This document shows positions 5,195-41,534 of a stretch of DNA of 43,505 bases, one piece after another; the stretch's first letter is position 1; each line of letters starts with the position of its first letter. The notes under the pieces are model-generated. The model searched no databases. It saw nothing but the letters and a program-made list of their open reading frames with translations, and had not been told where the DNA came from. The position numbers and the translations under genes are program-made. Location of the stretch: the NCBI GenBank assembly GCA_016177615.1, contig JACOUX010000020.1:1-43505 (forward strand). Reading direction: 5' to 3'. This stretch comes from Candidatus Woesearchaeota archaeon. Its GTDB lineage: Archaea; Nanobdellota; Nanobdellia; Woesearchaeales; GW2011-AR4.

Positions 5195-7051
5195 TTACTT
5201 TTTAAACCAATTGCTTAATGTAATCTGCTCCCCCCTCTTCGAGCTCAGGTAAATCACCTGCCCTTCCCTTGAGCCATACCTGTAGATAGAAATTCCTTTG
5301 CATCCAAGCTCATAAGCCATCATGAAGATTTTTTCAGCATCCTCAACAGTGGCGTCTTTAGGCAACGTTACGGTTTTTGAAATGCCGTTATCAACGTATT
5401 TCTGGAAAGCAGCCTGCATCTTTACGTGCCATTCTGGCGCTATGTCACTTCCAACAACAAATATTTTTTTTATAGAATCCGGAATTCCTTCAATATTTTT
5501 CAGCGAGCCTTCCCTGCTGATTTGTTCAACAATTTCATCATTGTATAAATCATTTTCAATCAATGCTTTTTTCAGATTTTTATCAAAATAGGACAAAGTC
5601 TTGCCTTCTGCTGTTCTTCTTACATAACTCAGGGCAAACAATGGCTCGATTCCGCTTGAGCAGTCTGCGATTATGCTGATTGTCCCTGTTGGCGCGATTG
5701 TTGTTCTTGTGGCATTTCTCAAACGCGTATGGCAGCCATTGAAATATCTGCTTTTTCTGTTCCATATGCTGTCCTTCCACGCTGGGAATTTCCCCCTTAC
5801 AGCTGCCAGCTCCATTGATGCATGCGATGCTTCCCTCGAGATAAATCCCATGACTTCTTCTGCTTTTTCAATGCCTTCTTCAGAGTCATAGGCGACTCCG
5901 AGCTTTATGAGCATATCCGCGAATCCCATTATCCCAAGGCCGATTTTGCGGTTCTGCTCGACAATCTTTCTGTTTTCCTTCAGCGGGTAATTGCACATGT
6001 CAATCACATTGTCGAGGAAATGGGCGGCAGAATGAATTGTTTTTTTCAGTTTTTCATAATCTATTTTTCCGCCCGCAGCCATATTGGAAAGGTTGATGCT
6101 GCCAAGATTGCATGACTCATAAGGCAGCAATGGCTGCTCTCCGCAGCTGTCGGTTGATTCTATTTTGCCTAATTTGGGCGTGGGGTTGAACTCATTGATT
6201 CTGTCAATGAATATCACACCTGGGTCTCCATTAAGCCAAGCCTGCCCGCATACCAAGTCAAAAATCCTTTTCGCGCTTTCTTTTCTTACAGCTTTTCTAG
6301 TTCTCGGATTTATGAGCTTATAATTTTTGTTTTCTTTTACGGCTTCCATAAACTCATCAGTTATCGCAACCGAGACATTGAAATTAGTCAGTATATTTTG
6401 GTCGCGCTTTACAGTTATGAATTCCTCAATGTCAGGATGCTCTGCATTTAACATGCCCATATTGGCTCCTCTCAGCACCCCTCCAAGCTTTATCTGCTCT
6501 GTAGCAGCGTCATAGACCTTCATGAAAGATACGGGCCCTGATGTGTAGCCCGCGCTTTCAATTGCATCACCCTTTGGCCTCAGGTTTGAGAAATTAAATC
6601 CAGTTCCAGCTCCTGTCTTATGAATTAATGCAGTATTCTGCAATGTCTTAAAGATTGAGCTTATATCATCCTCAATAGGAAGAACAAAGCACGCTGCCAA
6701 TTGCTGTAGCTTTCTCCCTGCGTTAAACAATGTTGGAGAATTAGGAAGAAAATCAAGAGAGGCCATCAACTCAAAGAATTCCACCTCTGTCTTTTTGATT
6801 TCCCTGTCATTCCTTATCAGTTTTTTGAATTCCTTGGCTTCAATTATTTCATAAAATTCCTTCTTGTATTCCTTCTGTATCTTAGCGGCTTCAATATTGT
6901 GCCTGTATTTAGCATCTGCCAGAGAAATGTTTTTTGCAACTCTCCTGAATAAGTCTTCAGGCTTTTCAATTACTTTCCCCTTGTCATTCTTTCTGAGATA
7001 GCGCTGCTCAAGGATTGTAAGGGCGTTTTGTGAAAACCTCAATTGATGCAT
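5195..7051 (-). CDS. nrdJ: Class II (adenosylcobalamin-dependent) ribonucleotide reductase, short intein-free paralogue
   Basis: It reduces ribonucleotides to deoxyribonucleotides by a thiyl radical generated from adenosylcobalamin. Domains visible in 618 residues: N-terminal ALTILEQRYLRK, PNSPTLFNAG (about 103-112), the redox Cys121 in ACFVLP, GAGTGFNFSNLRP, GGVLRGANMGML, the thiyl-radical Cys303 in SCGEQPLLPYESCNLGSINL, and PTGTISIIADCSSGIEP (about 454-470). It lacks an ATP-cone domain and the C-terminal cysteine tail that re-reduces the active site. The usual Asn two residues before the radical Cys is Asp301 (DSCGE, not NPCGE). TATA-like sequence at about 7066-7078 serves it divergently from the next gene. 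The second, intein-bearing paralogue lies 1.8 kb away. Confidence 0.9.
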   Translation of the reverse strand: MHQLRFSQNALTILEQRYLRKNDKGKVIEKPEDLFRRVAKNISLADAKYRHNIEAAKIQKEYKKEFYEIIEAKEFKKLIRNDREIKKTEVEFFELMASLDFLPNSPTLFNAGRKLQQLAACFVLPIEDDISSIFKTLQNTALIHKTGAGTGFNFSNLRPKGDAIESAGYTSGPVSFMKVYDAATEQIKLGGVLRGANMGMLNAEHPDIEEFITVKRDQNILTNFNVSVAITDEFMEAVKENKNYKLINPRTRKAVRKESAKRIFDLVCGQAWLNGDPGVIFIDRINEFNPTPKLGKIESTDSCGEQPLLPYESCNLGSINLSNMAAGGKIDYEKLKKTIHSAAHFLDNVIDMCNYPLKENRKIVEQNRKIGLGIMGFADMLIKLGVAYDSEEGIEKAEEVMGFISREASHASMELAAVRGKFPAWKDSIWNRKSRYFNGCHTRLRNATRTTIAPTGTISIIADCSSGIEPLFALSYVRRTAEGKTLSYFDKNLKKALIENDLYNDEIVEQISREGSLKNIEGIPDSIKKIFVVGSDIAPEWHVKMQAAFQKYVDNGISKTVTLPKDATVEDAEKIFMMAYELGCKGISIYRYGSREGQVIYLSSKRGEQITLSNWFKK

Positions 7052-8882: not shown

Positions 8883-11800
8883 TCACATGCAAAGTCCCCA
8901 TCCGCATCCAGGGCAGTGCAGGCATCCTTCTTTGAGCTCGACCAGCGTTCCGCATTCCGGGCAGTTCTTGATTGTCGCTTTTGTCATGTGCCTGCTGCTA
9001 GTTGCGCTGCCGCCGTTGCCATTGCCGCTGCCATTCCCGTTTCCGGCAAAGACCAGACCGCTTTCGGATTCCTTCACCATCTTTTTCTGCTCCGGCTTGA
9101 TGTCAATTTTAGCTTCCTGCTTTTCTTCTTTCGCTTTTGGAGCAACAAGAACCTGGTCCTTGATGCTGGAATCTCTGAAAACAGTCACGTCTTTGCATCC
9201 AAGCCTGTAGGCAAGTATGTAGCTGTCCCTCATGTGCTCCAAGGTGGCATCAGCAGGGAAGTTGTTTGTTTTTGAGATGCTTGAGTCAACCCATTTTTGG
9301 AAAGAAGCCAACGCCCTTATGTGGTCTTCTGGAGTTATATCCATCGCAGTCACGAGCGCATTCCTTATTTTCTTAGGTACATAATCAAGGTTTTGTATGC
9401 TTCCCTTGTGCTGGTTTATGTCCTCCATCAGCTTGTCGTTGTACAGCCCTTCTTCCTTCAGGACTTTCTCAGCAGCAGGATCAACATAATAAAAGCTTCC
9501 AACCTTTACATTCTTCTCGAACACGAGAGAATACACTGGCTCCATTCCGGAGCTGCATCCGGCAATCATCGATATGCTCCCCGTCGGGGCAATTATTGTC
9601 GTATAGCCGTTTCTGATTCCGTATTTTGTCGTATCCTGGCTTATTTTATCCCAGTTGAAATTGCTGCTTTCCGAAACATATGGGCCTCTTATTGGAAGCT
9701 TTCCCTCTTTGTAAAAGCTCTTATTGTAATATGGCAGATTACCCCTCAATTGAGCAAGCTTTATGCTCTCCACCTTGCTCCAGTAAGCTATGAACTCCAT
9801 CAGCTTCTCCATGAATTTTCTCCCTTCCTCGGAATTGTAGGGCAGCCTTAGCTCGTAAAGGAGGTCAGCAACACCCATGACCCCAAGCCCGATTTTTCTG
9901 GTTGCCAGGCTCATCTCTTCAATCTGCTTCAGCGGGAAATTATTCACGTCTATGACGTTGTCAAGAAACCTTGTGCAGCTGAATGTTGCCTCTTTTAGGG
10001 CTTCCCAGTCAACATAAGCATTTCCCTCATCATCATTCTTTGCGAATGCCCAGACATTAATTGAGCCAAGGTTGCAGGGCTCGTTTGGGTAAAGTAACAC
10101 TTCTCCGCAATTATGCACCACAATTCCATTTGCTATAAACGAATGGGTTATCGGCTCGGTTATGTCGTAGACTTCTTCAATACCGTTGGCTTCTATTCTG
10201 TCCAAATAATCTTCCCCCGCTTCATTATCTGCTAAAATGCTGTCGGCGCTTGTTAATTCTTCAGCGGCTTTCCAGCCATTAATTGTCAAAATTCTATGGT
10301 CAGGAGTGCATTTTAATTCCTTGCCTGATTTTGTAATTAATCTGATAGTTTCCTTTTTGCCAGTTTTAAATGCCCTAAAGTGCGAAATATATTTAATTCC
10401 CCTCAAGAAAAGGTTTCCGTTTTGGATTCTTTGATCCACTTTAATGTTTATTCCACCATTAGGGTATTTTTCAGCAAGCTCTTTAATTGTTATTAGACCT
10501 GCTTCAGTAGGGATAAGAGTGTCCCCTACAACGCATGGATTAGTTGTCACAATCGGCCCCAGATATTCAAAGAATGGGTTGTATTCATTCACTTTGTCAA
10601 AGAAAATTACTCCAGGCTCTGCTGATTCCCATGCCTGATAAACAATCTTGTCAAATAATAGTCTTGGATTGACATATTTTACAATCTGCCCGTCCTTGGG
10701 ATTGACCAATGGATATGGCTCGTTCTTATCGTAATGCTCCCAGAAGTCTGGCATTATCAGCACTGAGATATTGAAGTTCCTCAATCCCTTGTTGCCTTCC
10801 TTTGCGGTTATGAACTTTTCAATGTCAGGGTGGTTGCTGTTCAGAATGCCCATGTTGGCGCCACGCCTGATATTATGAACTAGCAATCCATTTGCAATAT
10901 AGCTTGAAGTGGATGGGACTTCTATTTCCATAGTATAAGTTTCCAGTCCGTTAGAAGTATTTGTAACTCTTGTAAAGAATTTACTATCAGAGCTAAATTC
11001 AGACAAAATCTTATCATCATTAAGGAATTGATGCTTTTTCATTAGCTTTTGCAGTTTTGTTCGTGTTAATGTCCTATCATTTTTTAGATAATGATAAACA
11101 TCTCGGTAGTAAGCTATATTTGCGCCTTTTTTTGCCCTTCCCTTGGCAGAGCCCCGGCCTACTCTCTCATAATATTTTGAGAATATTGTTGGATATGTTG
11201 GTATAAGGTCCGAATATTCTATTTTTTTATCCCTGCTATACTGCTCGAAAAGCTTCTTTTTCTTTTGTGAAATAAATCCTATATTTTTCTTGAAGATATT
11301 TACGCTCTTGTCCGTTAATATAATGATCTTATACATTTGCCTTTTGCCATAGCGCTCTTCTGATTGGGTTACTTTGTGGGCTTTTGCTACAATTCCCAAA
11401 GACAAGAGAAGTTGCTGTGCTTGGTCTATTAAAGTCTTAGAAGAAGAATATAGAATAGGGTAACCATCTGGATGTATGCTGCCATCTCCTTCAAACAAGC
11501 CCCTTAAGAATGCGCTAACAACAGGTTCTTCTGACCGGAAAATCTCGTTAGGCACAAAAGCATTCCATGATCTATGCTTCATCCATCGTAACTCGTTAAA
11601 AAACTTTTCCAAAGTCTTTGAAAAGAAAACAAGATCAAAATAAGTTACTTTGTCTCTTTTTTCTCCTATGCCTAAACCAAAAACTGTTTGCACAAGGTAT
11701 CCTATCCTTGTTATCAAGTCTTTATCTCTCGCATCTACAGAAATTATAAGTCTGCCTCTATTGAAGCACCCATCTGAAACATACAAGCCAAGCAATTCAG

Positions 11801-14375
11801 CAAGTTCTGCATTCAAGAATTCTGGTATTTTTAGAGGATTTGAATTATGATGCTGCTTTTCAATTCTCGGCAGTTCTATTTTTTTACCTTGATGCCCGCC
11901 CAATATTATTACAAGCCAGTCTCCTTCTTTTATTGAATCAACTCTTTTCCATTCAATTCCATTTGAAGTTGCAACAGCCATAAGATGGTTACCTGTTGCT
12001 TTTAGCTCATTTCCTAATTCTGTTTCAATTGTATAAACAGAAGCAATTCCATTATTTTGAGCGAGCCATGCATAGTTGTATTCATTTCCATCATACACAA
12101 AATAGTCTGTGAGGTTATCTCTTAATGGGGGAGAATTCAACATATCTATCATTGGCACAATGCCTTTGTCTGTCCTAACCATTGTATCAGTTGCGACACA
12201 TCCTCCCTGTTTTATCACTTCAGTCATTGTGTCAAACAATCTCATAAAGCTCAATGGGCCTGAGGCTACTCCCCCAGTTGAAGAAACGAAATCTCCTTCC
12301 GGCCTCAGCTTTGAGAAATTGTAGCCCATCCCGCCTCCGGCTTTGAAAACAACAGCAGTATTTTTCAATGTCTCCATTATTCCTTCGATGGAGTCAGGGA
12401 CGTCGAGGACAAAACAATTGTGCACGGAAACCATATTAGCAACATAAGAATGATCTTCCTCGACTTCCAGATTGTACACGGGACCGTAATATTCGACTTC
12501 TGAAATTTGGTCTATTTTTGTAAATGTAACTCCATTGACAATAAGGTCATTTGGCTTAAATCCACTGTCAGTTTCCTGTCTTTCAAAAAGTTCATTGATT
12601 AGCATAAGCCCATTTTCCCCGCTTAAAGTGCATCTGTATGGCTGAGTAGTGCCCATTTTTGGTATGGATTCTTTTCCCAAAGCCGAGAAGACTCCACAGC
12701 GCATTGACATTTGCCAAAATGCATAGACTAAATTTTGATTGCACATCACCAGTTTGGCATTTGTTTTATTATAATTTTTGAATACAGTTCCATCTCCCCT
12801 AATCATTCCTGCCATCAATCCCTTTTGCTTATTCTGTGGCAATTCAAGCATCCACGAAGGAACTGATTTTTCATCAAAGCCCCTTCCCAAAATTTTTTCA
12901 AAAAACTTAGCCAAAATGGTTGAGTGAAATCTCAAAGACAGCCATTTTCTGCTTTCTGAATTGGTTCTTTCTATTCTTGAGGAAATTCCAAATTTGTCCT
13001 GCATTATTGAAATAGCCTCTTGGCAATAGCTTTCCTCATCTGCTGAAAATGTAAATCTAACGCAGTCATTATCTGCAAGAGATCCTTCTGAAAGATAGTA
13101 TCCGAATAGCTTCATCAGGTCATTATCTACAACTACTGTATTCTTGACCTGCTTTGTGGAATGAACAAAAACATTGAATTTTCCGCCTTTGTATTCATAT
13201 GAGCATTTATCCTCTTCATTTACATGAACATTTTCAACAAAGTCGCTAACTTTTATCGCCTCTGCGTCTTGTACATCTTTGGGATAAGACATTGCAACAT
13301 AATCTCCTTCGCCTAGCGCATTGAGCCTTAGCCATTGTATTTTGCTGTCTTTATAGCATAAGATTGGGTGCTCCTCTGTGACAATCATAGAAGGCTTGGG
13401 AAGCTTGGAGCAGTTTACCTTGTATAACAAATCCGCATTTCTGGTATACACTTTTTCCACGTTTCTAAACCTTCCTTTATGAGTCAATACAGAATCTCCC
13501 ACTTTGACATCTTTAATCATCTTCGGCCCATTTTCTGTCATAATAGGCTGGTTTGGGTGGAAGCACGCACTTCCCATCCCCAACGGATTTCCGAAATTGG
13601 CAATTGCAGGAGTGTTGGGCATGAAAAGCTTATGGGTCATTAGGGTGTATAGCTCATCAATATTCTTTTCATAACCTTCAAACTCCCCTTTTTTTACCAT
13701 GTCAAAGAATTTTCCCCATGTCACTTTCATCTGCTTGTTCCTGTTGAAGCGGTCGTACATCCGCTTAAGCGCCTCTAAATGATACTTATTTAGGTGGTAC
13801 TTTCCAATCCCATGCTGGTCTTCATGGATAGCTGGCTTGAAATCCTCGACCATGTTGACCGGTTGTCGGCCGTTGATGTCAAAAATCCTCGTGTCATATA
13901 TGATGTCAGGCAATGCAGCATGAACTGCCACTCTTGTAAAGAGCTGCTTTGGAGTCTCGATTAATTTTCCGGTTGAGTCCTTTCTGAGATACCTCGCCTT
14001 TAGAACCCTTAGCGCATTGACATCAAACCTTTTGTCAACTTCATCAATCTCTTCTTTCTCAAGAACAAGCTGCTTCTCCTTCCTTAATGCGGCCCTTTCC
14101 TGCCTATAAAGTATATAAGCCTTTGCTGTTGAAGCATGCCCATTTTCTATAAGGACTTTTTCAACAATGTCCTGTATTTCCTCAACAGAAGGCATTGCAA
14201 GCTTTTCAAGCTCCTGCACCACCTTGTCGCTTAGTGCCTGTGCTGTCTTTTTGTCCCTGCCACCTACAGAGCTTGCTGCCCTGAATATAGCATTTGTTAT
14301 TTTGCCCTGGTCAAACAGGACAATTGTCCCGTCGCGCTTCTTCATCCTAGAAATTTTTGTTTCCATATTGGGCAC
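8883..14375 (-). CDS. nrdJ: Class II ribonucleotide reductase with ATP-cone and three inteins
   Basis: The 1830-residue precursor should splice to an 862-residue B12-dependent reductase. In order: ATP-cone (about 5-95, KKRDGTIVLFDQGKI), reductase N-domain, intein 1 (271-653), redox Cys654 in CFVLDVP, intein 2 (726-1168), RRGANMGIL, intein 3 (1281-1422), radical Cys1423 in NP|CGE, NEPCNLGSIN, APTGSISMIAGCSSGMEP (about 1596-1613), a Gly/Asn/Ser linker and a four-cysteine tail (CPEC, then CPGCG). The tail is the redox-shuttle or zinc-ribbon region typical of the family. The frame opens at GTG 14375; an in-frame ATG at 14366 is equally possible. A TATA-like ACTATATA lies near 14416-14423. Confidence 0.93.
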   Translation of the reverse strand: MPNMETKISRMKKRDGTIVLFDQGKITNAIFRAASSVGGRDKKTAQALSDKVVQELEKLAMPSVEEIQDIVEKVLIENGHASTAKAYILYRQERAALRKEKQLVLEKEEIDEVDKRFDVNALRVLKARYLRKDSTGKLIETPKQLFTRVAVHAALPDIIYDTRIFDINGRQPVNMVEDFKPAIHEDQHGIGKYHLNKYHLEALKRMYDRFNRNKQMKVTWGKFFDMVKKGEFEGYEKNIDELYTLMTHKLFMPNTPAIANFGNPLGMGSACFHPNQPIMTENGPKMIKDVKVGDSVLTHKGRFRNVEKVYTRNADLLYKVNCSKLPKPSMIVTEEHPILCYKDSKIQWLRLNALGEGDYVAMSYPKDVQDAEAIKVSDFVENVHVNEEDKCSYEYKGGKFNVFVHSTKQVKNTVVVDNDLMKLFGYYLSEGSLADNDCVRFTFSADEESYCQEAISIMQDKFGISSRIERTNSESRKWLSLRFHSTILAKFFEKILGRGFDEKSVPSWMLELPQNKQKGLMAGMIRGDGTVFKNYNKTNAKLVMCNQNLVYAFWQMSMRCGVFSALGKESIPKMGTTQPYRCTLSGENGLMLINELFERQETDSGFKPNDLIVNGVTFTKIDQISEVEYYGPVYNLEVEEDHSYVANMVSVHNCFVLDVPDSIEGIMETLKNTAVVFKAGGGMGYNFSKLRPEGDFVSSTGGVASGPLSFMRLFDTMTEVIKQGGCVATDTMVRTDKGIVPMIDMLNSPPLRDNLTDYFVYDGNEYNYAWLAQNNGIASVYTIETELGNELKATGNHLMAVATSNGIEWKRVDSIKEGDWLVIILGGHQGKKIELPRIEKQHHNSNPLKIPEFLNAELAELLGLYVSDGCFNRGRLIISVDARDKDLITRIGYLVQTVFGLGIGEKRDKVTYFDLVFFSKTLEKFFNELRWMKHRSWNAFVPNEIFRSEEPVVSAFLRGLFEGDGSIHPDGYPILYSSSKTLIDQAQQLLLSLGIVAKAHKVTQSEERYGKRQMYKIIILTDKSVNIFKKNIGFISQKKKKLFEQYSRDKKIEYSDLIPTYPTIFSKYYERVGRGSAKGRAKKGANIAYYRDVYHYLKNDRTLTRTKLQKLMKKHQFLNDDKILSEFSSDSKFFTRVTNTSNGLETYTMEIEVPSTSSYIANGLLVHNIRRGANMGILNSNHPDIEKFITAKEGNKGLRNFNISVLIMPDFWEHYDKNEPYPLVNPKDGQIVKYVNPRLLFDKIVYQAWESAEPGVIFFDKVNEYNPFFEYLGPIVTTNPCVVGDTLIPTEAGLITIKELAEKYPNGGINIKVDQRIQNGNLFLRGIKYISHFRAFKTGKKETIRLITKSGKELKCTPDHRILTINGWKAAEELTSADSILADNEAGEDYLDRIEANGIEEVYDITEPITHSFIANGIVVHNCGEVLLYPNEPCNLGSINVWAFAKNDDEGNAYVDWEALKEATFSCTRFLDNVIDVNNFPLKQIEEMSLATRKIGLGVMGVADLLYELRLPYNSEEGRKFMEKLMEFIAYWSKVESIKLAQLRGNLPYYNKSFYKEGKLPIRGPYVSESSNFNWDKISQDTTKYGIRNGYTTIIAPTGSISMIAGCSSGMEPVYSLVFEKNVKVGSFYYVDPAAEKVLKEEGLYNDKLMEDINQHKGSIQNLDYVPKKIRNALVTAMDITPEDHIRALASFQKWVDSSISKTNNFPADATLEHMRDSYILAYRLGCKDVTVFRDSSIKDQVLVAPKAKEEKQEAKIDIKPEQKKMVKESESGLVFAGNGNGSGNGNGGSATSSRHMTKATIKNCPECGTLVELKEGCLHCPGCGWGLCM
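10110..10535 (-). mobile_element. Intein 3 (142-residue mini-intein) in nrdJ
   Basis: It starts Cys1281 (CVVGDTLIPTEAG), has block B ELKCTPDHRIL (T..H) and ends with HSFIANGIVVHN at Asn1422, followed by Cys1423. It has no endonuclease domain, so it cannot home by itself. It interrupts NP|CGE immediately before the thiyl-radical cysteine, which therefore doubles as the +1 splicing nucleophile. Without splicing the enzyme must be inactive. Confidence 0.94.
10872..12200 (-). mobile_element. Intein 2 (443 residues, LAGLIDADG endonuclease) with Ile at +1
   Basis: It starts Cys726 (CVATDTMV, block A), with block B LKATGNHLMAVATS (T..H) and the C-terminal block TYTMEIEV...SYIANGLLVHN ending at Asn1168. 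Endonuclease motifs are LLGLYVSDGC (861-870) and FLRGLFEGDGS (956-966). The exteins rejoin as KQGG|IRRGANMG. The +1 residue is Ile1169 (ATC codon at 10871-10869), not Cys, Ser or Thr, so the standard branched-intermediate route lacks its nucleophile. The uninterrupted paralogue has Val at this position. Confidence 0.92.
12417..13565 (-). mobile_element. Intein 1 (383 residues, LAGLIDADG endonuclease) in nrdJ
   Basis: It starts with Cys271 (CFHPNQPIMT, block A) and ends His652-Asn653, followed by Cys654 as +1 nucleophile. Block B is VTEEHPIL (T..H), and block F is GPVYNLEVEEDHSYVAN. Two LAGLIDADG-type motifs, LFGYYLSEGS (423-432) and LMAGMIRGDGT (520-530), mark a homing endonuclease. The insertion splits the ACFVL motif exactly before the redox-active cysteine of the reductase. 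All canonical splicing residues are present. Confidence 0.95.
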
Positions 14376-35418: not shown

Positions 35419-35922
35419 TTATAATCTAGAATAAATTTTCCCTAGCCTATCCAAGCCTTTGGCTTTTTTAAGATGGCCTGATACTTCTTTTGGCACCAAC
35501 CTCTCCCATTTCTCTCCTTTTACCATCATTTCCCTTATTCTTGTGCTGCTTACGCCCCTGATTAATCTGATTTTTTTGACTTTTATCTTATGTTTCCCAA
35601 AGCACCTGATAGTATAAGGGTTGCCGGAATAAGCAATGCCAAAAGAAGGAAGCCGTTTCCTTAGGTCTGCAATCCACTTATTGTCATCATAAAAGTCAGG
35701 ACTCGGATAAATTTTGAAATTGCTGATTTTGTTTTTCAAAAGGGCTTTTTTTATCATCTCTCTTCTTTCAGCATAGCTAAAAGGATTTTCAGGCGTGTTT
35801 TTTTCATTAGAGCTTCCTATTGCAATTATTATTTCATCATATTCTTTTAGAATGTTCTTTATATCAATCAAATGCGCATTGTGGAACGGCTGGAACCTGC
35901 CGATGAAAAGGGCGCGTGACAT
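35419..35922 (-). CDS. nadM: Nicotinamide/nicotinate-nucleotide adenylyltransferase (NadM-type)
   Basis: It joins ATP and NMN (or NaMN) to make NAD (or deamido-NAD). The 167-residue protein has GRFQPFHNAH (the archaeal GRFQPFHxGH with Gly replaced by Ala) and the C-terminal GVSSTRIREMM (ISSTxIR). I start at ATG 35922; the frame extends to 36072 but a TATA-like TTTATAAA near 35945-35955 points to a leaderless start here and the extra residues are unlike the family. It fits the nearby NadE pair as an NAD-synthesis cluster. Confidence 0.92.
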   Translation of the reverse strand: MSRALFIGRFQPFHNAHLIDIKNILKEYDEIIIAIGSSNEKNTPENPFSYAERREMIKKALLKNKISNFKIYPSPDFYDDNKWIADLRKRLPSFGIAYSGNPYTIRCFGKHKIKVKKIRLIRGVSSTRIREMMVKGEKWERLVPKEVSGHLKKAKGLDRLGKIYSRL

Positions 35923-35955
35923 AAAGAAATAAGAAAGATTGCGGTTTATAAAGTT

Positions 35956-36363
35956 TTGGTGAAATTTTTGACAATTGCTATTATTCTGATTGGAATAATT
36001 TTGGCACAAGGATTTATTAATAAGGGTATAAAAATATTTATCGTGGCAAAAGTTCAAAACGTTTCCAGTCATTCAGATTTAGGAGTAGTGGCGTCTACAA
36101 TATTAAAATCTGAAAACATCCCGCAGGCTGTTTTGCAAGCATTGAAATCTGATGGGCAAAATATGGCCATAGAGCCGCCTGTACTCTGGCTCGCATTATA
36201 CAGGGCCGGAGCATCTTCGGTTAAAGAGCCCCCAAGTTCGCCTCTATCCTTTGCGTGCCATGATAAAAGTGTAGCTCTGGATGGAAAAACACAACTTGCA
36301 TTAGACACCATCAACGCATACTTGGAAAATCAGAGTTTGGGTCAAGAGCCATACTACAAATAA
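35956..36363 (+). CDS. Small protein with N-terminal signal/anchor, unknown
   Basis: The 135-residue frame starts at TTG 35956 (GTG 35959 alternative) with a hydrophobic helix (FLTIAIILIGIILAQGFI) and a polar remainder containing a PPVLWLALYRAGA segment and a single Cys. It is probably anchored or secreted. No family recognised. It diverges from the adenylyltransferase. Confidence 0.5.
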   Translation: MVKFLTIAIILIGIILAQGFINKGIKIFIVAKVQNVSSHSDLGVVASTILKSENIPQAVLQALKSDGQNMAIEPPVLWLALYRAGASSVKEPPSSPLSFACHDKSVALDGKTQLALDTINAYLENQSLGQEPYYK

Positions 36364-36382
36364 AATTACCATTAATAATTCT

Positions 36383-37213
36383 TTACCCCCTAAACCCATT
36401 CGTCACAGGCATTCTCCACTCCATCCCGTGAAAAGACCTTTCAGAAACTCTAAGGATCATTGCAGCCCTTCTCTTGTGCTCGTTTAGCCTGATTCTTTCA
36501 GCGACACTATGGACTATTTTTCTATTAAACCCAATTTTTATAATGCCATCTATTGATTTGTTTTCTTCAATGTACATCTTCAATATCTTGTCCAAAATTT
36601 TATATTGCGCGCCCAATTCTTTTTCAGCAGTCTGGCCCGCTATCAATTCAGCGCTTGGCTTCTTTCTTAAAATATTGCCTGGAACGCCTAAATATTTTCC
36701 CAGCCCAATCACCTCGCTTTTCCATAAGTCGCCAAGCACTAAAATGTCAGATGCGTTGTCCCCGTATTTTGTCGTGTAGCCGAGCGCAATCTCGGACTTG
36801 TCTGAAGTGCCTATCACCAATGCATTGCTTGAATTTACAAAATAATAAAGAATCATCATTCTGGCCCTGGCTTTTGCGTTGGCAATGGCGAAAATATCTT
36901 TTTTTAATTTTAATTTTTTGTTTATTTTTTCAAATGAAGCCAGAAAATCATTTATTTCAATTATTTCATATTCTATTTTTAATTTTCTTGCCAAATCTTC
37001 GGCATCCCGGGTGCTTTCTTTTGAAGTAACTTCCAAGTCCGGCATTAAAATTGCCATGACGTTTTTGCCACCCAGGGCTTTTGCAGCCAGAGCGCATGCT
37101 ACCGAGCTGTCTATCCCGCCGCTTAGACCTATGACTGCCTTCTGGAAATTATTTTTCCTGAAATAGTCTCCGATGCCAAATACTAATGCTCTGCAGATCT
37201 CCTTTGTGTTCAT
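36383..37213 (-). CDS. nadE: NAD+ synthetase catalytic domain protein
   Basis: It amidates deamido-NAD to NAD with ATP. The 276-residue protein has the pyrophosphatase P-loop SGGIDSS (31-37), the ALVIGTSDKSEIALGYTTKYGD motif, and GDLWKSEVIGLGKYLGVP. Its size is that of the ammonia-dependent type, but the gene upstream encodes a matching glutaminase domain, so the two may act as a glutamine-dependent pair. It starts at ATG 37213. Confidence 0.94.
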   Translation of the reverse strand: MNTKEICRALVFGIGDYFRKNNFQKAVIGLSGGIDSSVACALAAKALGGKNVMAILMPDLEVTSKESTRDAEDLARKLKIEYEIIEINDFLASFEKINKKLKLKKDIFAIANAKARARMMILYYFVNSSNALVIGTSDKSEIALGYTTKYGDNASDILVLGDLWKSEVIGLGKYLGVPGNILRKKPSAELIAGQTAEKELGAQYKILDKILKMYIEENKSIDGIIKIGFNRKIVHSVAERIRLNEHKRRAAMILRVSERSFHGMEWRMPVTNGFRG

Positions 37214-37299
37214 TTTTATTGAATTTGTTTAATCTAATTATTGAATAAATAGGCGAGCCCGAGCGTGTGTGCCAACAGCGAGGGCGAGCACAATATTTT

Positions 37300-37314
37300 G
37301 TGAGCGAAGCGAAC
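37300..37314. repeat. Second copy of the GTGAGCGAAGCGAAC repeat
   Basis: Exact 15-base match to 34223-34237. It lies in the 121-base spacer between the glutaminase and synthetase genes, next to the small hairpin CACAA-TATT-TTGTG (37290-37303). A dispersed repeat of unknown origin; other copies outside the window are likely. Confidence 0.6.
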
Positions 37315-37334
37315 AGGTTTAATTAATTTTATTT

Positions 37335-38042
37335 TTATTGGGTTTCAACAATCAAACTATTCTCCTCAAAATCCTTTGCTTTCCTTACAATTCTTCCATT
37401 ATTGAAAAACATGCTGTGCCCATAATAAACAATCCCGTCCTGCCCCCCGGCCTGATTGACATAAGCTATTGGAATCCTGTTTTCTTCCCACCTTTCTTTT
37501 AGTATTTTTTCAATTTTTTTTATTTTGCCTTCTCCGTAAGGCGATGCTGAAATATTTATTATCAGCTCTGCGCCATTGTCCTTTTGCTTTTTTGTTGTTT
37601 CAGGAAACCAGATGTCCTCGCAGATGCTAAGGCCGATTTTCTTCCCGTTAAATTCGAATATTGTCGCTTCACTGCCTTCCATGAACCATCTTTTCTCGTC
37701 AAAGATTGAATAATTGGGAAGGCAGATTTTATGGTGGATCCTGAGAATCTGCGTGTCTTGCATAACTGCGGCGCTGTTGTACAGCTGATTATTCCTCTTG
37801 TCAATGAATCCGATAATTGCTGCCTTGTTTTTAGTGCTTTGCACTATCCTTTCAAATGCCTTTAGATTCTCTTCAACAAAATTTGGGTTTAGGAGCAAAT
37901 CCTGCGGGCTGTATCCTGTGATTGAAAGCTCAGGAAAAACAATTAAATCTGCTTTTGTGCTTTTGATTATTGAGATGATTTTTTTAGTGTTCCCCTTAAT
38001 ATCTCCGACTGTCGGGTTTAATTGGCATAGGGCAATTCTCAT
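37335..38042 (-). CDS. Stand-alone glutaminase (nitrilase-fold) subunit of NAD synthetase
   Basis: The 235-residue carbon-nitrogen hydrolase has the Glu-Lys-Cys triad Glu38 (VFPELSITGYSPQDLL), Lys105 (HHKICLPNYSIFDE) and Cys141 (SICEDIWFP). The wording of these motifs, plus NISASPYGEGK and YVNQAGGQDGIVYYG, matches the N-terminal glutaminase domain of bacterial glutamine-dependent NadE rather than other nitrilases. It would supply ammonia to the NadE protein encoded next. In most organisms the two are one polypeptide of about 550 residues or more. Confidence 0.85.
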   Translation of the reverse strand: MRIALCQLNPTVGDIKGNTKKIISIIKSTKADLIVFPELSITGYSPQDLLLNPNFVEENLKAFERIVQSTKNKAAIIGFIDKRNNQLYNSAAVMQDTQILRIHHKICLPNYSIFDEKRWFMEGSEATIFEFNGKKIGLSICEDIWFPETTKKQKDNGAELIINISASPYGEGKIKKIEKILKERWEENRIPIAYVNQAGGQDGIVYYGHSMFFNNGRIVRKAKDFEENSLIVETQ

Positions 38043-38473: not shown

Positions 38474-41359
38474 TTAAGCGGCCAGTTTATACGCATTTTG
38501 TATTTTCCTGACAATTGGCTGGGATATTTCTTCAGGAAGACAGTATAACATTGTTGTGAATTGTTTTTTGAAAGAAGCAACTTGCTTTGCTACATTCTGC
38601 CCTCTTAAAGCACGTCCCATGTAAGTCAAAAGTTCTCCAAAATGTTCTTCCTTCATTCCAAATCTAGTCATTTCCTGAGTTCCAATCCTTAAGCCGCTTG
38701 CTCCTAAGAAGGCCATATCATCGTATAATGCCTGTGCGCTTGTAACGGTGTTATTTTCTCTTAAAGTCCTGGCCATTTTATGTCCTTGGTATCTCTCCCC
38801 CCTCAGCAAAGCTATGTGAGACTGAGTTAATCCCGGTTCGGCTATCAATCCAGCCAATCCTGCGTTTTTTTCAACAAATTGCGCATTCTTGATTACCTGC
38901 GATCCGTAAGGTTGCCAGAATTCATTCATCTCTCTTGTAGCATACAACAATGCAAGCTTTACATGAAGATGGGTGTTGCTTTCTTCTGCCAAAACTCTCC
39001 CATAAATTTTCTGCACCAACTCGTCATTGAATGGTCTGTTTGTTGCCCAGAATGCTGCGCCTTGAGGCCCAAAGAAAACTTTGTGAAGTGAGCCTTCCAT
39101 GGTATCAACAAACTGCAATGCGTCCGCATGGAAAAATTTGTATAACCCGTTAGTATGGGAATCGTCCAAATTAAGTATAGCCTTATCAGGGTTATCTTTT
39201 CCGTAATAATCATCTATCCCTATCCTTAATCTTTCCAGCGGCTCAGGTTTTCTTATACAACTTCTGCCAACCGAAATTAGTATTCCTCCTCTTCTTTCTG
39301 GGTCAACTCTTTTAAGCATGTTAATTGCAGCATCTGTATCTATCTCGTACGGGCTATCTCTCCTCATCGGCAAATTAGAAACCGCATATCTCCCTGTCCG
39401 GTCTTTTTGCACGAAGTCCTTCAAGCCATACATTGATTGGATGCTTATATGCCCTCCATGTCCTTGGCCGACATTAAGTACATGCCACAGTCTTGGGGGA
39501 TCTCCCGCAATGCTTCTGTTGGTGTAATCCATAATTCCCCCAACTACCATCTTGACTGCCTGTTGTCCTGAATTTGGGCTGTGGCCCACTGTTCTAGCAT
39601 TAAAATATCTTCTCAATTCAGCATTTAGTAAAGGCTCAATTCCCGCATGCAGTTCTCCATCAGGAAGGCCGACATTCATGAATTGGGTACCTTCATAAAA
39701 CGCCATGACTTGTCTAATTGCCCTAAGAAACATAATCTCATTGTATCTATGTTTTGGGTCAAGTCCTGTAAAAGCTCCGACTATATCAGATGTGCTTTGT
39801 TCAGAGGCTATACAATTAAAGCAGTCAAATTTTCTGGATTGTGTATTTACCACACCATCGTTTGTCAATGCAATGGCAAATTGTTCCAGGCTTCCTTGAA
39901 ATGGCTCCACCAATTGTGGTTCAGGAATTGTGCCGTCCTGTGGCCTTGAATAAGGATATGCAGATATCATATTTGAATCGACAAGTTTTGCTTCCAAGCC
40001 TTTTACTTCTTTTCCGTTCTCGTCAAATACTTGGAACACGATCTCTTTTTGTGGATTAAATCTTAAGTCAGAATTTATCAGTCCCATTCCGATAGTTCTT
40101 TTGCTCCACTCATCTGCAGGAACTGCATAAACACCTTCGCCATCGAAATGAGTATAAGGTGAGTACAGTCCGCTTGTTATTGCTCCGACTTCTTTTCCTT
40201 TATAATGGAGCTTCATGCCCGCCCTTAGACTTCGGCCGCTGCTTCCAACCCCTAGCAAGGGTTTTATGTGCTTGCTCAATAATATTGATGAGGGGTCAAT
40301 GAGTTCTCCTCTTTCTATTGCCTCATACTCTTTCCTCTGTCTCTCCAAATATTCCCTGCCAGGAAAACTTCTTTTTGGGTCTAATAAATTTACTCCAAAT
40401 CTGGCTTGATCAATTGCAAATGTATTGATTGTTGGACTTCCATTAGTTCCGTCTCCCTGTTCGTGTCCATATAGGGGAAATCCGGCCTCCAGCCTGGTGC
40501 TGTCTCTGGCAGCAAGCCCGGCGGCCATTAAGCCATAAGGCTTTCCAGCTTCAGCTAATTCTCTTGAAAACTGAGGAGCAAACTCTGAATTCAGGAAAAT
40601 TTCGAAGCCTACATTTTCTCCTGTATAGCCAGTTCTTGAAATAATTAATTGATAGTCGCCTATCTTAACTTTTGATAAATAGTTTTTCTTAGCCTTCGGA
40701 AGCCAACCGCTGTTTCCATCCCTGCTTAAGATATCTTCCAATATGCTTTCTGCATTTGGACCCTGCAAAGAGAGCATTGCAACCCTTTTACTTATGTTTT
40801 CTAATTCTACATCCGGAAGTTTTCCTTTGTAAAATTTTGAGAGCAGCCTTCTTTCGAAACTAACTAATTTGTCCCTAACTGATTCAGGCAAAAATCCAAA
40901 GTTTACAGGGGTTAGTGCAGCAGTCTTGTATTCCTCCAAAGACTTGCTTAAATAATCAAAATCCTTTTTCCTGTTTGAGGCATTTCCAACAAAAATAAAA
41001 ATATCTTCAAGCCTATAAAGAAAAGCATCATCCTTCAAATGCCCTTTTCCATCTGGCAGTCCTGTATACTGCGCCATGCCAAAATCTTCACCAAAATCAT
41101 TTAATGAAGCAGCATCATTTGTCAGGTATTTCCTCAAAAAGTCAAGAGCATCCTTTCCTTTTATCATAACTCTCAACATATGGCTTATGTCCCACCAAGC
41201 AGCAGTCCTTCTCGCTGCCAAATGCTCCTCAAAAGGATGAGAAAATTGAATTGGCATTAAATGGCCGCCAAACTCGCCCAGTTTGCCCTTGCCAGGCTGC
41301 ATAAATTCCTGGTAAACTGGGAACAGAACAGTTCTCTCCAATTGAGAAATATCAGTCAT
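38474..41359 (-). CDS. Fusion of glycine-cleavage T protein and serine hydroxymethyltransferase
   Basis: Residues 1-470 are a GcvT-like aminomethyltransferase: WWDISHMLRV, NDAASL, DDAFLYR (catalytic Asp110/111), SRTGYTGENVGFEI, GLAARDSTRLEAGFPLYG. Residues about 490-961 are a divergent serine hydroxymethyltransferase: FNCIASEQSTS (Glu520), HSPNSGQQA, LDDSHTNGL (Asp732, His735), SLHK with the PLP lysine Lys760, and GLRIGTQEMTRFGMKEE (Arg891). Together they would turn glycine units into serine through methylene-tetrahydrofolate without releasing it. No other gcv gene is in the window. A TATA-like box at 41423-41432 and GGTG near 41366-41371 precede ATG 41359. Confidence 0.9.
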   Translation of the reverse strand: MTDISQLERTVLFPVYQEFMQPGKGKLGEFGGHLMPIQFSHPFEEHLAARRTAAWWDISHMLRVMIKGKDALDFLRKYLTNDAASLNDFGEDFGMAQYTGLPDGKGHLKDDAFLYRLEDIFIFVGNASNRKKDFDYLSKSLEEYKTAALTPVNFGFLPESVRDKLVSFERRLLSKFYKGKLPDVELENISKRVAMLSLQGPNAESILEDILSRDGNSGWLPKAKKNYLSKVKIGDYQLIISRTGYTGENVGFEIFLNSEFAPQFSRELAEAGKPYGLMAAGLAARDSTRLEAGFPLYGHEQGDGTNGSPTINTFAIDQARFGVNLLDPKRSFPGREYLERQRKEYEAIERGELIDPSSILLSKHIKPLLGVGSSGRSLRAGMKLHYKGKEVGAITSGLYSPYTHFDGEGVYAVPADEWSKRTIGMGLINSDLRFNPQKEIVFQVFDENGKEVKGLEAKLVDSNMISAYPYSRPQDGTIPEPQLVEPFQGSLEQFAIALTNDGVVNTQSRKFDCFNCIASEQSTSDIVGAFTGLDPKHRYNEIMFLRAIRQVMAFYEGTQFMNVGLPDGELHAGIEPLLNAELRRYFNARTVGHSPNSGQQAVKMVVGGIMDYTNRSIAGDPPRLWHVLNVGQGHGGHISIQSMYGLKDFVQKDRTGRYAVSNLPMRRDSPYEIDTDAAINMLKRVDPERRGGILISVGRSCIRKPEPLERLRIGIDDYYGKDNPDKAILNLDDSHTNGLYKFFHADALQFVDTMEGSLHKVFFGPQGAAFWATNRPFNDELVQKIYGRVLAEESNTHLHVKLALLYATREMNEFWQPYGSQVIKNAQFVEKNAGLAGLIAEPGLTQSHIALLRGERYQGHKMARTLRENNTVTSAQALYDDMAFLGASGLRIGTQEMTRFGMKEEHFGELLTYMGRALRGQNVAKQVASFKKQFTTMLYCLPEEISQPIVRKIQNAYKLAA

Positions 41360-41534
41360 TCAGAAACACCTTATTGAGCTCATTTTGTCACCATTATTTT
41401 AAACGCCGAAACTATAAATTTTATATAAACCTTTTGATGGAGTTATAAAATAATTATTATCAGTAAGAAGTAAAAATAATCAAATTTGCAAAATCGTAAA
41501 AACATTTATAAACAAAACAATTATCCTTTTTTCC

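Follow-up and report, generated by a model that had tools for sequence, protein, structure and literature searches.

A fused GcvT and serine hydroxymethyltransferase gene in a Woesearchaeota archaeon is a diverged member of a mostly bacterial family

Introduction

In Pseudomonas aeruginosa, the gcs2 operon (gcvH2-gcvP2-glyA2-sdaA-gcvT2) couples glycine cleavage to serine hydroxymethyltransferase (SHMT), converting glycine to serine and pyruvate, and this operon is needed for growth with glycine as the only carbon source (PMC4894688). Its T-protein (GcvT) and its SHMT are separate proteins, unlike those of the fusion described in this study. An unfused counterpart is also carried by a P. megaterium plasmid, in the order glyA-sdaA-gcvT-gcvH-gcvPA-gcvPB.

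The solved GcvT proteins of B. subtilis (1yx2), T. maritima (1wos) and E. coli (3a8i) share the full T-protein fold and the catalytic residues with the N-terminal half of the fusion, which continues into roughly 450 residues of SHMT. The SHMT of M. jannaschii (4bhd/4uqv), which uses tetrahydromethanopterin (PMC3697235), has the PLP lysine, the active-site residues and the motifs HKTFFGPQ and FPG..SNHH in common with the fusion family. In contrast to this enzyme, the family is fused to GcvT and is mostly bacterial, and the archaeal copy studied here has no FPG loop. L-threonine transaldolase (7k34) and fluorothreonine transaldolase (TIGR04506) share the SHMT fold and the GPQ signature with the fusion, but 7k34 is a weaker match than the M. 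jannaschii SHMT, and its solved chain has no GcvT part.

In this study, a stretch of 43,505 nucleotides from a Candidatus Woesearchaeota archaeon (assembly GCA_016177615.1, contig JACOUX010000020.1), hereafter the window, was analysed for a gene in which two folate enzymes are joined.

The fusion gene and its domains

The fusion gene lies at 38474..41359 on the minus strand and encodes 961 amino acids. The ORF starts with ATG and has no internal stop over its 961 codons, the chance of which is about 3e-30 given its base composition; the remaining five frames contain 34-71 stops. The codon-position GC is the same in the GcvT and SHMT halves. AAGGTG stands immediately ahead of the ATG, and a putative TATA-like box (TTTATATAAA, 41420..41429, minus strand) can be read about 60 nt upstream of it.

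The GcvT (aminomethyltransferase) half covers approximately residues 1-470 (39950..41359, minus strand). Pfam GCV_T (PF01571) matched residues 24-304 with an E-value of 3e-57 and 194 bits against a cut-off of 25.6, and the closest solved proteins were 1yx2 and 1wos. With the NCBIfam gcvT equivalog, the window protein scored 176, under the cut-off of 236, which the fusion of Vescimonas fastidiosa clears. The window copy differs from known GcvT proteins by some 37 additional residues (approximately 146-182; 40814..40924, minus strand), which are gapped in the other aligned fusions and are partly covered by a helix (159-176) in the predicted model; another difference is that searches of its genome found neither a P- nor an H-protein. 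A linker follows at approximately residues 471-489 (39893..39949, minus strand), which is a low-conservation joint in the alignment and has no secondary structure in the model.

The SHMT-like half covers approximately residues 490-961 (38474..39892, minus strand). Pfam SHMT matched residues 697-913 (E 6e-9, 35.5 bits against a cut-off of 27), and NCBIfam PRK00011 (SHMT) matched residues 505-935 with an E-value of 6e-32 and a score of 111 against a cut-off of 335. TIGR04506 was also a match to this half, and the best solved SHMT match was the M. jannaschii enzyme. In the fusion of the genome numbered G050, from the same order as the window, the SHMT half gave 168 bits with the M. jannaschii SHMT versus 78 with that of E. 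coli, and by this resemblance the SHMT half of the fusion belongs to the archaeal type represented by the M. jannaschii enzyme.

Both domains of the window protein were modelled by AlphaFold (mean pLDDT 86.9, pTM 0.86), and the predicted model of the Sporomusa ovata fusion was also of high confidence. In a structure comparison, the window model resembled solved T-proteins and SHMTs. The window ORF is a true GcvT-SHMT fusion, two folate enzymes joined in one protein: the ORF, the Pfam domains of both halves and the predicted folds bear out the preliminary description, which had placed GcvT at residues 1-470 and SHMT at 490-961 of one polypeptide. An assembly join, named there as what would overturn the fusion, was ruled out because unrelated genomes share the same one-ORF fusion, with 76 of the 80 bacterial loci fetched carrying it.

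Active-site residues and divergence of the window copy

By alignment with E. coli GcvT and GlyA, the main catalytic residues of the window copy are present (D111; S519, E520, Y539, E541, Y555, H637, D732, H735, K760 and R891). The GcvT motifs GYTGE and ARD..R are kept (D110, D111, G244-E248, R285, D286 and R289), as are the SHMT positions, in E. coli numbers, of the PLP lysine, H126, D200, H203, R363, E57, Y55 and Y65. The D111 codon (41027..41029, minus strand) aligns with D98 of E. coli GcvT (Met taken as residue 1), the second aspartate in the DD motif, which would be D97 in the numbering of PDB 3a8k. The K760 codon (39080..39082, minus strand) encodes the PLP-binding lysine (K229 of E. coli SHMT). 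D111 and K760 are D and K, respectively, in 69/69 other fusions, and in these 69 no catalytic residue of either half is changed except S35 (68/69).

The Phe-Pro-Gly loop of SHMT has a role in folate binding. This loop (E. coli 257-259) is found in 69/69 other fusions and is absent from the window SHMT half, where L790 and A791 (38987..38992, minus strand) read L-(gap)-A. In addition, T230 of E. coli SHMT is V in the window copy, and SNTH stands where the family has SNHH. The earlier claim that the key residues are intact thus applies to the main catalytic positions in either half, but not to the Phe-Pro-Gly loop and T230. The SHMT half had also been called divergent, and rightly: it deviates at 52 of the 118 columns in which 67 bacterial fusions do not vary, and the GcvT half at 16 of 65 such columns. 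In the two full-length sisters from the window's order, 25 and 18 of the 118 SHMT columns are changed. The retained catalytic residues suggest that the window copy is still an active folate/PLP enzyme.

Distribution and kinship of the fusion family

When the window protein served as the single query against public genomes, no matches were obtained, presumably because the protein is too divergent, and viral scans also gave none. A tblastn search of plasmid records revealed a full-length relative in V. fastidiosa, named only GcvT in RefSeq, and a search of genomes from the window's phylum gave more fusions. A scan with an alignment of SHMT halves yielded at least 594 stretches, among them at least 572 relatives, and 80 of these were retained and fetched. 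In 76 of these 80 loci, both halves lie in a single ORF, and the hosts are unrelated bacteria (Clostridia, Desulfobacterota and other Deltaproteobacteria, Nitrospirota, Actinomycetota, Riflebacteria, Spirochaetales and others). Together with full-length copies in two further genomes of the window's order, these loci provide the list of fusion genomes that the preliminary description had called for. Literature searches for a described GcvT-SHMT fusion found none, and the fusion seems to be undescribed, in line with the earlier remark on the lack of a well-described enzyme of this kind. It is by no means confined to the window genome, as the many SHMT-half relatives show.

In the GcvT tree, the fused rows cluster (2 label changes versus 16.5 in shuffles), and the tree is compatible with a single origin of the fusion. 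In the SHMT tree, the fused halves group with the stand-alone protein of genome G044, the split gene of genome G457 and a stand-alone clostridial copy, separate from ordinary SHMTs. In both trees, the window copy and the split G457 copy are joined on long branches, a grouping that may be false according to a program warning. In G457 (L155, 3980-6714), the GcvT and SHMT-like halves are two overlapping ORFs, both very divergent, which is apparently a split form of the fusion. The stand-alone protein of G044 (L039, 5809-7224) has 471 residues, is of the SHMT-half type and adjoins genes resembling gyrase subunits.

Gene neighbourhood in bacteria

Genes for gcvH or gcvP were found inside the fetched stretch at 42 of the 76 fused loci. 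Among the other 34, 27 have some flank but no gcvH or gcvP, and seven lie near a contig end. In V. fastidiosa, the gene row is fusion-gcvH-gcvPA-gcvPB-lpdA-5-formyl-THF cyclo-ligase. When 23 fusion genomes were searched, the fusion was the sole GCV_T match in 10 and therefore the only T-protein candidate there; the fused half was the sole SHMT above the cut-off in four, and an ordinary SHMT was also present in 19. Because of the 42 loci with glycine cleavage genes and these 10 genomes, the family is most likely a glycine-cleavage T-protein with a built-in SHMT. Among neighbours named by eye, a serine dehydratase gene precedes the fusion in Desulforhopalus (D. singaporensis); in a Thermoleophilia MAG, the fusion lies between 2-hydroxyacid dehydrogenase and glycerate-kinase-like genes.

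S. ovata has an ordinary gcvT with gcvH and gcvPA, plus a separate fusion. This, together with the 27 fusions that have no glycine cleavage genes nearby, means that some fusions may have another role. In the same species (L176/L161), an ORF that by eye resembles a group II intron reverse transcriptase lies between gcvT and gcvH.

The window genome and its order

Searches of the window genome, which is 99% complete in 67 contigs, found no GcvP, no GcvH and no second GCV_T gene. The search for gcvH and gcvP elsewhere, which had been proposed as a check, found such genes beside many of the bacterial fusions but none in the window genome. This genome has a separate ordinary SHMT (glyA) with FolD adjoining (by eye), as well as lipoyl synthase, thymidylate synthase and DHFR (the last two by eye). 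FolD beside glyA, thymidylate synthase and DHFR make it likely that THF chemistry is present in the organism.

Five genomes of the order have the fusion, namely the window genome (G000), G050, G179, G103 with a broken copy and G457 with the split one. The G103 copy (L038, 3132-5039) stops at 635 aa and its frame near the end no longer matches the family, so either the copy is broken or a sequencing error lies within it. Among these five, GcvH was found in none and GcvP in one, G050, where the order is fusion-gcvPA-gcvPB, with the GcvP genes directly after the fusion. A stand-alone GcvT match was listed for 22 genomes of the order, among which GcvH occurs in 19 and GcvP in 21. The hand-calculated chance of finding GcvH in 0/5 is 56/80730, approximately 0.0007, with kinship and incomplete assemblies ignored. 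G332 and G338, from the window's genus, carry a gcvT-gcvH-gcvPA-gcvPB operon with an ordinary GcvT.

A diphthamide synthase gene adjoins the window fusion, and in the sister genome G179 archaeal-looking RNA polymerase and ribosomal protein genes were recognised by eye, both in keeping with an archaeal host. Near the window fusion (35419-38042, minus strand) lie a Pfam cytidylyltransferase-like protein and two ORFs that by eye resemble NAD synthetase and a nitrilase-type amidase; together they may form a cluster for NAD synthesis. Elsewhere in the window, a ribonucleotide reductase of 1830 aa (8883-14375, minus strand) is split by intein splicing and LAGLIDADG domains, and a second one is uninterrupted (5195-7051).

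Discussion

We believe, with a probability of roughly 0.6, that the family is a bifunctional T-protein/archaeal-type SHMT that makes serine, CO2 and NH3 from two glycine, and that the window copy has diverged from it and is most simply a second serine-glycine enzyme. The GcvT half would take the aminomethyl group off the lipoyl H-protein and then yield 5,10-methylene-THF and NH3, and the SHMT half would transfer the methylene-THF carbon onto a second glycine to form serine. This net reaction would be reversible in principle. For the fusion family, we infer both activities, the direction and any channelling. In the window copy, the GcvT half would be idle or would serve another donor, and the SHMT half would supply the second serine-glycine activity.

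The conversion of two glycine to serine had been proposed for the window protein itself. It is supported for the family by the gcv operons and the serine- and glycerate-pathway neighbours, but not for the window copy, whose genome has a separate ordinary SHMT. Since no GcvP or GcvH was found there, the T half has no known donor and the full reaction is impossible by any known route; with 52 of the 118 SHMT columns also changed, the glycine-to-serine mechanism is unsupported for this copy. The window copy is probably an uncoupled or repurposed member of the family. A further-reaching version, in which the fusion, as a widespread and so far undescribed enzyme, channels methylene-THF from the T-protein site to the archaeal-type SHMT within the protein and the window lineage has been uncoupled from glycine cleavage and uses another one-carbon donor, seems to us unlikely.

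The window copy might also have been repurposed such that its GcvT half takes a one-carbon unit from a methylamine such as sarcosine instead of from the H-protein, and passes methylene-THF to the SHMT half. We regard this as unlikely. GcvP and GcvH were not found although the GcvT catalytic residues are kept, and the GcvT-like domains of demethylases were also structural neighbours of the model (compare dimethylglycine and sarcosine oxidases); but the neighbours of the fusion within the window included no oxidase or demethylase gene, and its GcvT half fits true T-proteins better than demethylases. The loss of the Phe-Pro-Gly loop that 69/69 others keep and the change of SNHH to SNTH could instead point to a folate-independent aldolase or transaldolase acting on hydroxy-amino acids, with the GcvT half a structural or regulatory remnant, and L-threonine transaldolase 7k34 likewise has no FPG (CPH) and has SNCH. 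However, the window sequence is nearer to the M. jannaschii SHMT (79 bits) than to 7k34 (33 bits), and E541, Y555 and R891 are kept, which makes this reading rather improbable.

If the P- and H-protein genes were absent from the assembly only, or were supplied by a partner organism, the window copy could carry out the ordinary glycine-to-serine reaction. The 67 contigs, the lipoyl synthase and the complete operon for glycine cleavage, including an ordinary GcvT, in species of the same genus are consistent with this, but at 99% completeness both genes would need to be missing, and GcvH is also absent from the four other fusion genomes of the order, so we consider it very unlikely. A functionless, decaying gene or an assembly join is hardly to be expected. 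The strongly diverged SHMT half and the broken copy in G103 would fit decay, but the 961 stop-free codons, the kept catalytic residues and the like composition of the halves speak against it, as does the same fusion found elsewhere against a join.

Should both halves of the fusion be active, serine would be produced from glycine in hundreds of bacteria by a single-chain T-protein/SHMT that genome annotation conceals under the name GcvT. The transfer of methylene-THF between two active sites would then become directly testable, and the enzyme would be relevant to modelling how glycine is used and how the reductive glycine pathway works, and could be taken up as it is in one-carbon engineering. 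Copies that lack P- and H-proteins, like that of the window, would show the fate of such an enzyme after the loss of its partners.
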